This document shows, piece after piece, positions 29,036-35,943 of a stretch of 39,189 bases of DNA. The notes below the pieces were generated by a model. The model ran no database searches and had not been told where the DNA came from. It saw only the letters and a list, made by a program, of their open reading frames with translations. The DNA lies in NCBI GenBank assembly GCA_026707585.1, contig JAPOWQ010000045.1, positions 1 through 39,189 of the forward strand, read 5' to 3'. The stretch's first letter is position 1. Each line of letters starts with the position of its first letter. Made by a program: the position numbers and the translations under genes. Origin of the DNA: Chloroflexota bacterium (lineage in GTDB: Bacteria > Chloroflexota > UBA11872).

Positions 29036-32000
29036 CTACTGCCAGTCACGGGATGGCGGCGTGCCCAGGTAGTCGGACGTGACCGGCGAGCAGGTTTCGG
29101 CCATCACCTGGACCGCCCCATGCTCGTCCTGGAGTTCGCCGTCGATCATCATTACCAGCGAGTCCAGGATCGCGCGCTGGTAGCGGGTGAAGATGTCCGG
29201 GCGAATGATCACGTTCACCAGCCCGGTTTCATCCTCCAGCGACAGGAAGGTGTAGCCGCGCGCGGTTGGCGGGTGTTGGCGGTTGAGGACGATCCCGGCC
29301 ACGGTGACCATGATTCCGGTGCGGGCCTGTTCGCGGAGCGAGTCCGGCACGCCGCTATCGCCCAGGCCCTGGAGTTGTCGGCCGCTGCCTCGGCCGTCGT
29401 AGCTGTTGCCGGCACGACGGGCCCGCTGGCCGTAGCGTCCCGCGGCGCTCTGCTGGGGCCGGCGCCATCCACCGGTTCGCTGCTTCCCTAGGGGGGAGTG
29501 TTCCTGTGGCCGGGGAACGGCCGCCGGGATCGAGACCCGACGGATCCGAGGGCGCGGCCGGGTGGCCGCCAGGGCCGGCAGGTCCGCGGCGCGCAGCACC
29601 CCCGCCTCGGCCAGCGTTGTCCGCAGAAACTCCAGGCCGCGCCAGCGGGTTGAGAGGCCGGTCGCGGCAAAGTCCATGTGCGCCTGCACCAGCGCGTCGG
29701 CCGGGGGCAGCGTGACGGGTTCCTCCAGGTCCGCCGCCAGCCCCGGCAGTTCGCCGCCCTGGGCGGCTGACGCAAAGGCCTGCACCTGCCAGAGCGCCGC
29801 GCGCCGGTTCAGCCCAAGGCTCCGAAACGCCCCCGCCGTGGCCAGCGCTTCCAACACGTTGCTGGGCAACCGCGTCCGGCGGCAAAAGGCTTCCAGCGAG
29901 CCATAGGGCCCTCGGGCAATCTCGCCGTCCAACCGCTCACGGTGGTCGTCTCCCAGGCTTTCCACGTACCGATACCCCAGCCGTACCGCGCTGTCCGACT
30001 CGACCGTGCACTCGAAGCGGCTGCGCTGAACGTCCACGGGGCGCACCGTCACTCCGTGCCGCTGGGCGTCGCCCACCAGCGTATGCGGGCTGTAGAAGCC
30101 CATCGGCTGGCTGTTCAGAATCGCGCAGGTGAACTCCGCGTGGTAATACACCTTCAGCCAGGCCGAGACGTAGACCAGGAGCGCAAACGCGCAGGAGTGC
30201 GCCTCGGGAAACCCATACCCCGCATAGCCCTCGATCTGCGCGTAAATCTGTTCCGCCGTCGACGCCGGGATGCCGTTGCGGGCCATGCCGCGCATCAGGT
30301 CGTCCTGCAACGCCTGGATGTGCGCGAGGGAACGCTTGCGGCTCATGGCGCGTCGCAGCGCGTCGGCCTTGGTCGCCGAGAACCCCGCGGCAACCATGGC
30401 GATCTGCAGGCACTGCTCCTGGAAGATCGGCAGCCCCAGCGTGCGCTGCAGCACGGAGGCCAGGCCGGGCCACACGGGATCGGCCGCTTCCTGCCCGAGG
30501 CGACGCAGGATCCAGCGCCGGTGCATCTTGGTCGTCATTGGGCCCGGCCGGATGATGGCCACCTGCACCACCAGGTCGTAGAAGCACCGCGGCCGCGTCT
30601 GCGGCAGCACGTGCATCTGGGCGCGGCTCTCCACCTGGAACAGGCCAATGGTGTCGGCCGCGCAAATCGCGTCATAGACCTTCGGGTCGTCGAAGGTGAA
30701 ATCCGCCAGCGCCAGCCGCCGCCCGTGCCGTTGCTCGATCAGCCGGAAGGCCCGCTGCACCAGCGTCAGCATCCCCAGCCCCAGCAGGTCGATCTTCAGC
30801 AGCCCGGCGTCCGCGCAGTCGTCCTTGTCCCACTGCGCCACGCTGCGCCCTTCCATCGTCGCCGGCTCGATCGGCACCGAGGCGTCCAGCGGGCGTGACG
30901 AGATGATCATCCCTCCGGTATGGATCCCCAGGTGCCGCGGAAAGTCCACGATCTCCCGGCTCAGCTCCAGCAGATCGCGCCCCACGCGGCTGGAAACCTC
31001 GGTCGGCAGGTCCCCGCCGGCCTGGTCCGGGTCGGGCATCGCAATGCTGGGATGCCACTGCAACCGCTGCGCCAACCGGTCCACCTGGGCCAGCGGCAGC
31101 CCCAGCGCCTTGCCCACGTCGCGGATGGCCGAGCGCCCGCGAAAGCAGATCACGTTCGCCACCATCGCCGCCCGCCGCCGGCCGTAGCGCTGGTACACGT
31201 ACTGGATCACCCGCTCGCGCTGCTGGTGCTCGATGTCCAGGTCGATGTCCGGCGGCTCGTCCCGATCCGGCGACATGAACCGCTCGAACATCAGCCCGGC
31301 CGCCATGGGATCCACCATCGAGATCTCCAGCACGTAACAGAGGATCGACCCCGGCGCCGAGCCGCGGGTGTTGACCAGGATGTCGTTGCGGTGACAGAAG
31401 CCCACCAGGTCCCGCACCGTCAGGAAATACCCCGCCAGCCCCTGGTCCTCGACGTACCGCAGTTCCTGCAGCACCCGATCCCGCACCGTTGCGTCCAGGT
31501 CGGGATAGCGCCGCCGCACGCCCTCCCAGACCAACCGCTCCATGTAGCGGTATTCCGACTCGCCCTCCGGCGTGGGATACGCCGGCAGGCCGTATGCCAG
31601 CTTCCGGCTCAGGTCGAAATCGCACATCTCCGCAACGCGCACGGTGTTGCTGATCGCCTCGGGCACATCGGCAAAAAGCCGTGACATCTCCGCGGCGGAC
31701 TTCAGCACGAACTCGTGGTTTGGCCGCAACCGCCGTCCCGCCGTTTCCAGCGTGACGGTGTGCCTGATGCAGACCAGCACGTCCTGCAAGCGTGCCCGCG
31801 CCCGGTCGTGGTAGTGGACGTTGTTGGTCGCCACCAGCGGCAGCCCCGTGTCCCGCGCGACCTCCAGCAACCCGGCGTTCGCCAGGTGCTCCGCCTCCAG
31901 CCTGTGATCCTGCAGTTCCAGGAAAAAGCACCCCGCCTCGAACATCTCGGCATGCGTCCCCGCCAGCTCAACGGCCTGGCGGCTGTCGCCAGCCAGCGTT

Positions 32001-32404
32001 GCGGACGCGACCGCCCCCTGCGGGCAGCCCGAGAGCCCCACCACGCCCCGCGTGTGCCGCGCCAGGGTGTCGAGATCAAGCTCCGCCATTCCCTTCGGCC
32101 GGTCGTGGTGGGCCGCGGTCGCCAGCCGGCAGATGTTGGCGTAGCCCTCCCGGTCGCGCGCCAGCAGGGTCAGGTGATGCCCCCCGGCCATGCTGGCCTC
32201 CATCCCCACGATGGGGCGCAGGCCATGCTCCCGCGCCGCCTGCGAGAACCGCACCGCGCCGTACACCCCGTCGTGATCCGTGATCGCCAGCGCCCGCAAC
32301 CCAAGCTCGGCGGCCCGCGCCGCCATTTCCTCGGGATGCGACGCCCCGTCCAGGAAGGAAAAGTTGCTGTGCGCGTGCAACTCCGCGTACGCGGGTCGGG
32401 TCAA
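29036..32404 (-). CDS. dnaE2: Error-prone DNA polymerase III alpha subunit, DnaE2/ImuC type
   Basis: The 1122-residue polymerase performs translesion synthesis with ImuA and ImuB. An N-terminal PHP domain (ELHAHSNFSFLDGA) leads into the C-family polymerase core with the metal motif PDIDLDIEHQQRERV, then the ESRAQMHVLPQTRPRCFYDL region typical of DnaE2, helix-hairpin-helix repeats, and a C-terminal OB-fold (YTFLSLEDETGLVNVIIRP). Between them, about residues 940-1000, is a Gly/Arg/Gln-rich linker without obvious homology. The beta-clamp motif could not be placed. ATG 32404 overlaps the imuB stop by 4 bases. Confidence 0.93.
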   Translation of the reverse strand: MTRPAYAELHAHSNFSFLDGASHPEEMAARAAELGLRALAITDHDGVYGAVRFSQAAREHGLRPIVGMEASMAGGHHLTLLARDREGYANICRLATAAHHDRPKGMAELDLDTLARHTRGVVGLSGCPQGAVASATLAGDSRQAVELAGTHAEMFEAGCFFLELQDHRLEAEHLANAGLLEVARDTGLPLVATNNVHYHDRARARLQDVLVCIRHTVTLETAGRRLRPNHEFVLKSAAEMSRLFADVPEAISNTVRVAEMCDFDLSRKLAYGLPAYPTPEGESEYRYMERLVWEGVRRRYPDLDATVRDRVLQELRYVEDQGLAGYFLTVRDLVGFCHRNDILVNTRGSAPGSILCYVLEISMVDPMAAGLMFERFMSPDRDEPPDIDLDIEHQQRERVIQYVYQRYGRRRAAMVANVICFRGRSAIRDVGKALGLPLAQVDRLAQRLQWHPSIAMPDPDQAGGDLPTEVSSRVGRDLLELSREIVDFPRHLGIHTGGMIISSRPLDASVPIEPATMEGRSVAQWDKDDCADAGLLKIDLLGLGMLTLVQRAFRLIEQRHGRRLALADFTFDDPKVYDAICAADTIGLFQVESRAQMHVLPQTRPRCFYDLVVQVAIIRPGPMTTKMHRRWILRRLGQEAADPVWPGLASVLQRTLGLPIFQEQCLQIAMVAAGFSATKADALRRAMSRKRSLAHIQALQDDLMRGMARNGIPASTAEQIYAQIEGYAGYGFPEAHSCAFALLVYVSAWLKVYYHAEFTCAILNSQPMGFYSPHTLVGDAQRHGVTVRPVDVQRSRFECTVESDSAVRLGYRYVESLGDDHRERLDGEIARGPYGSLEAFCRRTRLPSNVLEALATAGAFRSLGLNRRAALWQVQAFASAAQGGELPGLAADLEEPVTLPPADALVQAHMDFAATGLSTRWRGLEFLRTTLAEAGVLRAADLPALAATRPRPRIRRVSIPAAVPRPQEHSPLGKQRTGGWRRPQQSAAGRYGQRARRAGNSYDGRGSGRQLQGLGDSGVPDSLREQARTGIMVTVAGIVLNRQHPPTARGYTFLSLEDETGLVNVIIRPDIFTRYQRAILDSLVMMIDGELQDEHGAVQVMAETCSPVTSDYLGTPPSRDWQ

Positions 32405-34086
32405 TCCAGGGCCCCCTGCGCAAACCAGCCCGACTCGGCGCGCTCGCGGTAGAGCGCCAGCCCGCGCCCGTCGTCCAGCCGCACGTGCAGGTAATCACGG
32501 TCCATGGGCTTCGCCCACCACTCCGTCTGCACCCGCTGCGGCCCGTAGCGAGCGACGACCTTCCGGGTTGTCCCATCCAGCGTCACCCGGCCGGCCCCAT
32601 CGATCCTGCTGATCCGCACCGGCCGCGGCGGCGTGAAAAGGCGCGTGAGCCCCCGCGTCCCCGCCAACCCGGCCAGCCACGCCGGGGAGGTTGTTGGCGC
32701 GTCGCGCTGGGCGCCCGTCTCAACGTAGGCGTCAGTTCGTCGAGCCGCCGTCTCCAGCGTCCAGGCCTCGGGGCATAGCTCCATGCGGAACACCGCGTCG
32801 TCCCCCAGCTGCGCCCGCAGCCGGCTGATCGCGTGGTTCGCCCGCGCCGTCCGCTCCGACCGGTTGCCCAGCAGCGACCGCTGCGTGCCGGCCCCCGGAA
32901 CCAGCTGCTGCACGTCCAGGGCAATCCGCACCACCCCGGGCCGGTCCAGCGGAATCTCCGGCATGGCGGACTCACCCTGGGAAACCCCTGCATAACCCCG
33001 CCTCGACCTAGAAAGCGGGGCCGCTCTTTCTCCCTCTCCCTCTGGGAGAGGGTTGGGGTGAGGGTCTTCCTGGCAATCACCTCTCAGGGTTTCGCAAAGG
33101 TCTCTCTGGGCATCCCCGGCCCACGCCTCCAGCCGCCACCGGGCCGCGTCCCGCAAGCTGGCCGCGCTGCCGGACGCCTCAGGCAGATCCAATGAGAACC
33201 GCTGCACCGTCCCGTCCGCCCGCTCGATCCGGCTGCCTACCTGCTGCGCCATCAGCCCACGCCTCGCCAGCCGCGCGGCCAGGCGCTGCGCCAGGGCATG
33301 CAGAGCGAACGTCAGCCGGTCCACGTTGTGCTCTTCCCACTCGAAGTCGATCGCCTCATCCAGGACGATCGGCCGCGGCCGTCCCCGCGGGGGGTGCGGA
33401 TCCTCGCCGCAGGCCAGCCGCCACGCCCGCGCGCCCTCAATCCCGTACCGCGTTCGCACGGCATTAGTCGGCAGATCGGCGAACGCGCCGATCGTGGCCA
33501 CGCCCAGGATCCGCAGCTGCCGGAGCGTCCGCTCGTCCAGCGGCAGCCGGTCGACCGGTTGGCTGGCCAGGTACGCCCGGTCGTCGCCCGAAACCGCGGC
33601 CACGCCCACATTGCCCGCCGTACGCGCCGCAACCTCCGCCGCCAGGCGTCCGGTTGCCAGTCCGACCTGGGCCGTCTGACCCGTCGCCGCTTCCACGTCG
33701 CGGCGCACCCGCGCGCCCAGCGCCGCGTGCGGGCCGTACAGCGGCGCCAGGCCGGCCGCGTCGGCAAACGCCAGGCCCACCCCGGCGTCCTCCACCACCG
33801 GCGAAAACCGGTCCAGCACGTCCAGCACCGCCGCGAACGCCTGGCCGTACCGCGGCGGATCGTCAGGCACGTAAACGCCCTGCGGACAGCGCTGCGCCGC
33901 TTCCTTCACGGCCATCCCCAGGCGCAAGCCCGCGGCTTCAGCCGCTTCGGAAACCTCGATCAGCCGCCGCTGGTTAGCTTGCCTCGCGTAGATCGCCCGC
34001 GGCTGCCCCGACCACGACGGCTGCGTCTGCGCCTCCACCGTGGTCCGAAAGCGCGGAATCCACAGGCACAACGTCCTGCGGTCCAT
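32401..34086 (-). CDS. imuB: ImuB, non-catalytic Y-family polymerase-like protein
   Basis: ImuB bridges the mutasome (ImuA, DnaE2, beta clamp). The 561-residue protein has Y-family fold traces (LCLWIPRFRTTVEA, GLRLGMAVKEAAQRCP, GVATIGAFADLPTNAVRTRYG) but lacks the catalytic acids (the first strand is LWIPRF; VGLAFADAAG replaces the SxDE motif), as usual for ImuB. Near residues 346-383 is a segment foreign to the family, containing DPHPNPLPEGEGE; this is the translation of a dispersed palindromic repeat (33032-33052) inserted in frame. imuA overlaps its 5' end by 113 bases. Confidence 0.88.
   Translation of the reverse strand: MDRRTLCLWIPRFRTTVEAQTQPSWSGQPRAIYARQANQRRLIEVSEAAEAAGLRLGMAVKEAAQRCPQGVYVPDDPPRYGQAFAAVLDVLDRFSPVVEDAGVGLAFADAAGLAPLYGPHAALGARVRRDVEAATGQTAQVGLATGRLAAEVAARTAGNVGVAAVSGDDRAYLASQPVDRLPLDERTLRQLRILGVATIGAFADLPTNAVRTRYGIEGARAWRLACGEDPHPPRGRPRPIVLDEAIDFEWEEHNVDRLTFALHALAQRLAARLARRGLMAQQVGSRIERADGTVQRFSLDLPEASGSAASLRDAARWRLEAWAGDAQRDLCETLRGDCQEDPHPNPLPEGEGERAAPLSRSRRGYAGVSQGESAMPEIPLDRPGVVRIALDVQQLVPGAGTQRSLLGNRSERTARANHAISRLRAQLGDDAVFRMELCPEAWTLETAARRTDAYVETGAQRDAPTTSPAWLAGLAGTRGLTRLFTPPRPVRISRIDGAGRVTLDGTTRKVVARYGPQRVQTEWWAKPMDRDYLHVRLDDGRGLALYRERAESGWFAQGALD
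33032..33052. repeat. Palindromic dispersed repeat inside imuB
   Basis: CCCTCTCCC (33032-33040) and GGGAGAGGG (33044-33052) flank TCT: a perfect 9-base stem. With the following TTGGGGTGAGGG it is the repeat whose translations (HPNPLPEGEGE in one frame, TPTLSQRERE in another) turn up in proteins of many unrelated bacteria. The element around it includes a second hairpin, CCCCGC/GCGGGG at about 32996-33020. Here it lies in the reading frame without breaking it. Confidence 0.75.
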
Positions 34087-34870
34087 CAGACCTCCTGAGA
34101 AACGGACAGTCGATCACCAGGTGCTGCACCCCCGTGTCGCTGCGCGACTTCAACACCCGGACCTCCAGCGTCAATCCCATCGGGACCTGCGTCAGGCGGC
34201 TGCGCTGCCACCGCCAGCCCCGGCAGGCCACCCCCAGCCGCAGCGAGGCCAGGTAGGGCAACCCGGCAACGCGCTGGTTGCCGGTCGTTGTCACCGCGAT
34301 CAGGCTCGCCGCCCCGCGTCCCGCCAAATCGGCCAGCTGCGACCACCGGTTGCCGCGCGGCCGCGCCGACTCCAGGTCCAGCAGCACCGCCTCGAAGGCC
34401 TGGCTCCGCAGCAACGTCGCACTCGCGTGTAGAGCCATCTCGGCATCCGGCGGCCGCACCACCACGAGCCGCGACAAATCCAGGTCCATCGCCACACCAG
34501 CGGTGGGCGCAAACGTCCCCGGCAGGTCCACGTAAGCTGCCAACCCCCCGCCATCCAGCGCGGCGCCCAGCACCCGCCACCCCAGCGTCAGCGCCCCGCC
34601 GCCCGGCGGACCGGTCAGTTCACTCAGCCGCCCCCTGGGAATCCCCTCGAACCCGGTCGCCCGGTCCAGCGCCTCGCTGCCGGTCGAAAACCCGGCCTCT
34701 GGCGGACTGACCCCAAACAGCCGCCCCGCGGCATGCAACCCCCAGCGCCGTTCGATTTCATGCACGGCCGTCCGCAACGCGGCGGGACGCTCGGTATCGG
34801 GAAGAGCCAGCGGAACACCCTGGGCAATACGGGACCCCATGATACCAAACAAAAAGCGAACACCAGTCAC
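33974..34870 (-). CDS. imuA: ImuA, RecA-like protein of the mutasome cassette
   Basis: The 298-residue protein has a RecA-like core preceded by FSTGSEALDRATGFEGIPRG, with a degenerate Walker A (GPPGGGALTL; the Lys and Thr of a working P-loop are missing), followed by AAYVDLPGTF and LIAVTTTGNQR. ImuA and the SulA-like proteins share such a RecA fold. The stop at 33974 makes a 113-base overlap with imuB, so its last 37 or so residues may be a read-through extension of a shorter ancestor. The start is GTG 34870; ATG 34840 is an alternative. No LexA box could be recognised upstream. Confidence 0.82.
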   Translation of the reverse strand: MTGVRFLFGIMGSRIAQGVPLALPDTERPAALRTAVHEIERRWGLHAAGRLFGVSPPEAGFSTGSEALDRATGFEGIPRGRLSELTGPPGGGALTLGWRVLGAALDGGGLAAYVDLPGTFAPTAGVAMDLDLSRLVVVRPPDAEMALHASATLLRSQAFEAVLLDLESARPRGNRWSQLADLAGRGAASLIAVTTTGNQRVAGLPYLASLRLGVACRGWRWQRSRLTQVPMGLTLEVRVLKSRSDTGVQHLVIDCPFLRRSDGPQDVVPVDSALSDHGGGADAAVVVGAAAGDLREAS

Positions 34871-35568: not shown

Positions 35569-35943
35569 ACCCCCGCCACCCACCCCTCCGGACCGCACCC
35601 GCCGCCTCCGCCCCCTCTTGCGTAGAGCCTGCCCTGAGCCTGTCGAACGGGGGCGACGTCCCCGACCCGCCCGTCTTCCGTGCACCCGTCAGCGGATGCC
35701 CACCCCCCCGGCACCCAAGCCCTCCCCTCGCACCTTCCTCACCTCGTCAACCCGAAGTCCGTCGAGGGCCTACTTTGAGCTACCCGAAGGGGCTCCGGCC
35801 GTAACCATTGCGGTCGGTCGCAGCCTGCCACCCTTATCACTCCGTGACCTCAAGCTCAGGCACTCCAGGCTCAGGCAGTTGATTCCCTCTATGCTGGAGG
35901 GTGGTACCTTACAGATCACGAACGCCAAGCACGGTATGAAGAC
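35569..35943. other. Repeat-rich spacer with a base-composition break
   Basis: No gene is supported. The left part is C-rich with repeat fragments (35626-35650). Around 35770 the composition changes from about 70% GC to near 50% and stays lower to the window end, marking a probable junction of acquired DNA. An open frame runs into the HD gene from 35848 but contains no accepted start before TTG 35944. Confidence 0.5.

Follow-up and report, generated by a model that had tools for sequence, protein, structure and literature searches.

The imuB gene of this Chloroflexota genome raises the question of how palindromic DNA came to lie within the reading frame of a polymerase homologue, and what has become of it there. 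The window, that is, the whole analysed stretch of 39,189 nt, belongs to a genome of 3.92 Mb (G000). The first-pass annotation had placed a dispersed palindromic repeat, inserted in frame in imuB, at 32980-33110, and this position was borne out almost to the base: the element occupies 32981-33104 and, with both copies of its target duplication, spans 32976-33109. We consider it very probable that an IS5-type MITE inserted in imuB, was read through in frame and was tolerated.

Structure of the imuB element and its place in the protein

The genes and the parts of the element are as follows:
32401-34086, minus strand: imuB, encoding a Y-family polymerase homologue of 561 aa (Pfam IMS 2e-23, IMS_C 2e-6)
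33974-34870, minus strand: imuA-like gene, neighbour of imuB, matching ImuA/RecA models
29036-32404, minus strand: dnaE2, neighbour of imuB, matching error-prone DnaE2 models
32981-33104, minus strand: MITE of 124 bp, approximately residues 328-369 of ImuB, with ends taken from the TIRs of 96 TIR-bounded copies and from empty sites
33087-33104, minus strand: left TIR, GAGACCTTTGCGAAACCC, with one mismatch to the consensus GAGACCTTTGCGTAACCC
32981-32998, plus strand: right TIR, a degenerate inverted copy, GAAACCCCTGCATAACCC reading from outside to inside
33105-33109, minus strand: left copy of the target duplication, CCAGA
32976-32980, minus strand: right copy of the target duplication, CCAGG
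33032-33052, no strand: core palindrome CCCTCTCCC-N3-GGGAGAGGG, with a 9-bp stem in the predicted DNA fold
32996-33020, no strand: second hairpin, CCCCGC...GCGGGG, seen in the sequence and the predicted DNA fold

The imuB segment is best described as a MITE. Its TIRs are 18 nt long, and the segment encoding DPHPNPLPEGEGE, to which the first-pass annotation had drawn attention, lies inside the 124 bp, as do the two hairpins that it had claimed. The core palindrome reads CCCTCTCCC-AGA-GGGAGAGGG in imuB; these 21 nt have a single occurrence in the window, where 0.03 are expected. An Rfam scan of the window gave no match, and a repeat search over a 700-bp stretch returned an unrelated inverted repeat only, the palindrome arms being below its minimum length. 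Alignment with the ImuB of relatives fixed the insertion ends and defined the 5-bp target duplication, whose imperfection (CCAGA/CCAGG) counts against the preferred explanation. The interval between the conserved codons on either side measures 225 nt here and 96 nt in unoccupied genes, a gain of 129 nt (43 codons) from the element and its duplication, and the frame is kept, as had been claimed. Because element and duplication together make 129 nt and no stop interrupts the frame entered, translation would run through the insert and add approximately 43 residues.

Two other stretches of the window were also noted. The motif TTCGACAGGCTCAGG, which we take to be another widespread dispersed repeat, has one site at 35633-35647, no excess over chance in the window alone. 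In dnaE2, 29294-29620 encodes approximately 80 extra basic residues between the HhH and OB regions; on inspection its sequence differs from that of the imuB repeat, and it was rejected as a copy.

An AlphaFold model of ImuB, built from 15 sequences and weak (mean pLDDT 61.5, pTM 0.37), shows a Y-family fold with DinB/Dpo4-type polymerases as top PDB matches. Residues 323-375 form a low-confidence coil in the little-finger region, between the last helix (308-336) and the last strand (385-397). The first-pass annotation had the repeat becoming protein sequence in a linker where it is tolerated; conversion and tolerance are supported, but the model, at low confidence, puts the insert in a loop within the little-finger domain rather than in a linker between domains. 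The order in ImuB of M. smegmatis is clamp-binding motif, RecA-NT motif, linker and ImuB-C (PMC11791113). Candidate counterparts here are QRSLLG near residue 402 and ANHAISRLRAQLGDDAVF near 416, both assigned by eye. In the model, the region that would bind the clamp and ImuA begins shortly after the added residues.

Dispersed copies and the putative transposase source

The core palindrome occurs at 71 places in G000 at up to three mismatches, compared with 3 for a reversed control pattern, and a 132-nt query spanning the copy in imuB gives 53 blastn matches in the same genome, so the repeat is dispersed as first claimed. The element is present in 12 of the 13 genomes of the genus. From the fetched genus loci we collected 96 units with GAGACCTTTGCGTAACCC-type inverted repeats; 90 of these TIR-bounded units have a clear core, and their length is 119-124 bp, most commonly 121. 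Of the 96, 14 have an exact target duplication of 6 bp and another 10 have one of 5 bp, while random pairing of left and right flanks gives approximately 0.7 per duplication length and never more than 4 in 200 shuffles. Taken together, 24 of the 96 carry an exact 5-6 bp duplication where about 1.4 are expected, and 36 do so with one mismatch allowed (5.9 expected). MITEs are dispersed elements of 70-300 bp with TIRs of 15-30 bp; the present family has the length and TIRs given above, together with target duplications, empty sites in relatives (imuB, ispD) and an IS with the same ends.

That IS, of 1193 bp, lies at G000:C68:1335-2527. Its transposase matches the IS5-family model NF033581 (4e-86; 288.8 bits against a cut-off of 140) as well as Pfam DDE_Tnp_1 and DUF772. 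A related copy in G006 has CTCAAG on both flanks, a 6-bp duplication like that of the MITE. The shared ends and similar duplications make the 1193-bp IS the likely source of the MITE's transposase. Some observations count against this: the usual target duplications of IS5 subgroups are 2-4 or 9 bp, compared with 5-6 bp for the MITE and 6 bp for the one IS copy; the flanks of the 1193-bp IS show no clear duplication; and the majority of the genus's IS copies are broken. Most likely, an IS5-family transposase recognised the GAGACCTTTGCGTAACCC-type ends and moved a copy of the element into imuB, where approximately 5 bp of target were duplicated. The first reading would accordingly be refined: the repeat is a MITE with TIRs at its ends, its copies have target duplications of 5-6 bp, and an IS5-family element is its apparent partner.

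Many other Chloroflexota families (L106-L134) have the core too, as CACCCCNACCCTCTCCC-N3-GGGAGAGGG but lacking these TIRs, and one genome holds it at as many as 65 places per strand; the interior of the MITE may therefore belong to an older and wider palindrome family. Beyond Chloroflexota the TIR has few exact matches, and in 257 Gb chance may account for some of them. At L176 and other IS loci, resident palindromes have copies of the IS and the MITE in their loops, which suggests that insertion may prefer such targets. Where the element, or in at least one case the IS, has entered the loop of an older palindrome, nested arrays result.

A palindromic core found apart from these TIRs could also point to a REP-type repeat that owes its mobility to a RAYT (Y1) transposase, and REPs of the GTAG/CGTC families do lie inside DNA-repair genes of other bacteria, dnaE2 included (PMC3733652). 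The imuB element resembles these in being a palindrome inside a repair gene, but neither a GTAG nor a CGTC tag is present in its sequence, and the copies are bounded by TIRs with 5-6 bp target duplications, the same ends as a DDE-type IS5-family IS. A REP origin is therefore very unlikely, and an IS5-type MITE remains the preferred reading.

Filled and empty sites, in-frame copies and selection

The segment had been described as lacking from the ImuB family otherwise, and it is indeed missing from the imuB of three genomes of the same genus (G005, G007 and G011) and of five of the sister genus (G014-G018). Between the conserved codons there are 96 nt in G007, G011 and the sister-genus ImuBs, and 93 nt in G005; the empty site reads GTGCAGG in G007 and G011 and CCCAGG in G005. 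Filled sites measure 222 nt in G001, G004 and G006, 225 nt in G000, 288 nt in G008 and 477 nt in G009, and all of these lengths are divisible by three. The first-pass annotation had named two findings that would speak against it, the same segment in ImuB of distant relatives and a lack of other copies in the genome, and neither was encountered. Growth of this linker within one lineage by slippage or point change, with no mobile DNA, would suit a site that is low-confidence coil in the model and easily variable in length, but it is refuted by the dispersed copies of the insert, by its fixed ends and by the empty sites, and we regard it as hardly tenable. The relatives include metagenome-assembled genomes, which might raise the suspicion of an assembly or binning artefact. 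However, six genomes assembled independently of one another have an insert at this site, their sequences diverged and their frames open, and the probability of an artefact is negligible.

The MITE insert in imuB is not unique. At the same site, G008 and G009 carry longer, nested inserts (L020, L022), and both have a further element in frame at a second, downstream site, after the RecA-NT-like segment; since the segments were assigned by eye, this site lies only putatively in the linker between RecA-NT and ImuB-C. With its nested growth, ImuB of G009 reaches 736 aa. The subtypes at the first site differ: G000 and G008 share one, and G001, G004 and G006 have another that is read in a different middle frame. 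On a tree of the imuB flanks the insert-bearing rows do not appear as one clade, and the best tree needs two changes, so that a single origin of the insertion is neither shown nor ruled out by these sequences. Both the two changes and the different subtypes at one site count against the preferred explanation, to which replacement by conversion or repeated insertion must be added. In another family of the class, imuB of G040 (L035) has palindrome-like, in-frame sequence in the same loop and near the C terminus, which looks independent of the inserts in the genus.

Other conserved genes also carry in-frame copies. The ispD gene of G009 reads TTGATA-element-TTGATA, a perfect duplication around 120 bp, so that 120+6=126 nt are gained; the insert is common to G000 (G000:C23:115270-116094), G009 and G012 (L376-L378), the site is empty in G010, G005 and others, and the element is oriented opposite to the imuB copy. 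In G012, this copy contains an extra in-frame insert of 24 nt. In-frame inserts with the core palindrome occur in gatB of G001, G010, G005 and G006 (gatB loci L396-L400 and L402), with TIRs partly preserved and a recognisable element end read in G005 only; gatB of G008 and G009 has longer in-frame inserts of related make-up. In cobT of G004 (L153/L416), approximately 84 extra residues are missing from other members of the genus, and a GSDH-domain protein contains palindrome-encoded residues. In-frame insertion was thus found in imuB, ispD and cobT, and gatB holds related repeat sequence. Many long ORFs spanning repeats in the G+C-rich DNA were set aside, their third-position G+C pattern being unlike that of genes.

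Pairwise Nei-Gojobori dN/dS values, calculated with a custom script and approximate, were compared on either side of the inserts. Insert-bearing pairs give imuB values of 0.22-0.26 before the insert and 0.20-0.30 after it, similar to the 0.21-0.32 and 0.24-0.36 of pairs without it, and the IspD values are 0.11-0.29 before and 0.06-0.09 after. In imuB and ispD alike, purifying selection thus acts to the left and right of the insert, and the genes appear functional. Within the ispD insert, the comparison of G000 with G009 and G012 gives no sign of protein-level constraint (dN 0.17-0.18, dS 0.03).

The element has on average 3.46 open frames of six, compared with 2.83 (sd 0.10) for shuffled copies. 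A test for frame bias in the element itself was negative, length plus duplication modulo 3 being distributed 11/7/6 among the 24 copies with exact duplications; frame keeping therefore reflects selection on the host gene. By our estimate, multiplying the one-third chance of a suitable length by the 3.46/6 open frames, approximately 1 in 5 random intragenic insertions keeps the frame. No more than selection on the host gene is needed to account for the in-frame inserts observed. Under the preferred reading, the imuB insertion would have been tolerated and nearly neutral, with frame-breaking changes later purged by selection, and the inserted residues would have drifted or given way to other copies of the element.

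The MITE could have been recruited later, a longer loop before the clamp-binding motif altering mutasome assembly. ImuB inserts do recur, at the second site in G008 and G009, as the nested growth in G009 and in the same loop in G040, yet recurrence may mean only tolerance; different frames are read in different species, leaving no conserved peptide, and the unconstrained ispD insert also speaks against recruitment, which we judge quite unlikely. The broader proposal that an IS5-driven MITE serves as a recurrent translatable length module, nestedly extending loops of housekeeping and repair proteins, with some ImuB extensions kept for changed mutasome assembly, is a speculation we consider unlikely. 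For the imuB insert, read-through and tolerance of a MITE remains our preferred account.

Relation to known in-frame repeats

Rickettsia is the best-known source of in-frame palindromic inserts. The Rickettsia palindromic elements (RPE) are palindromic repeats of ~150 bp, in frame in housekeeping genes and with predicted translation (PMC10969869). By analogy of behaviour rather than sequence, they appear to be the nearest known phenomenon, both being palindromic repeats in frame in conserved genes. However, the host phylum differs, and the imuB family occurs in both orientations with different frames read; for this family the TIRs, target duplications and empty sites have been defined, and G000 also contains an IS that shares its ends. 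IS5-family MITEs share with it a short, non-coding make-up, TIRs matching those of a resident IS5-family IS, target duplications and tens of copies, but the imuB family differs from them in its 5-6 bp duplications, in a palindromic interior found without the TIRs in other Chloroflexota families, and in having several copies in frame in conserved genes. The QMITEs of Coxiella burnetii, a separate family, are sometimes inserted in frame (PMC5896051); the in-frame examples considered from that report affect hypothetical proteins or the 3' end of a gene, whereas inserts of the imuB family lie mid-way in conserved enzymes. In the literature searched we found no description of this Chloroflexota MITE family, which in its behaviour looks like known in-frame repeats.

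The imuB case supplies the parts needed to explain in-frame palindromic inserts as ordinary transposition. With approximately 1 in 5 intragenic insertions keeping the frame, protein-coding inserts would be an expected by-product of such MITE families. Because several genes carry inserts, and one site has empty, single and nested states, the fate of an insert can be compared across relatives and is hence testable.
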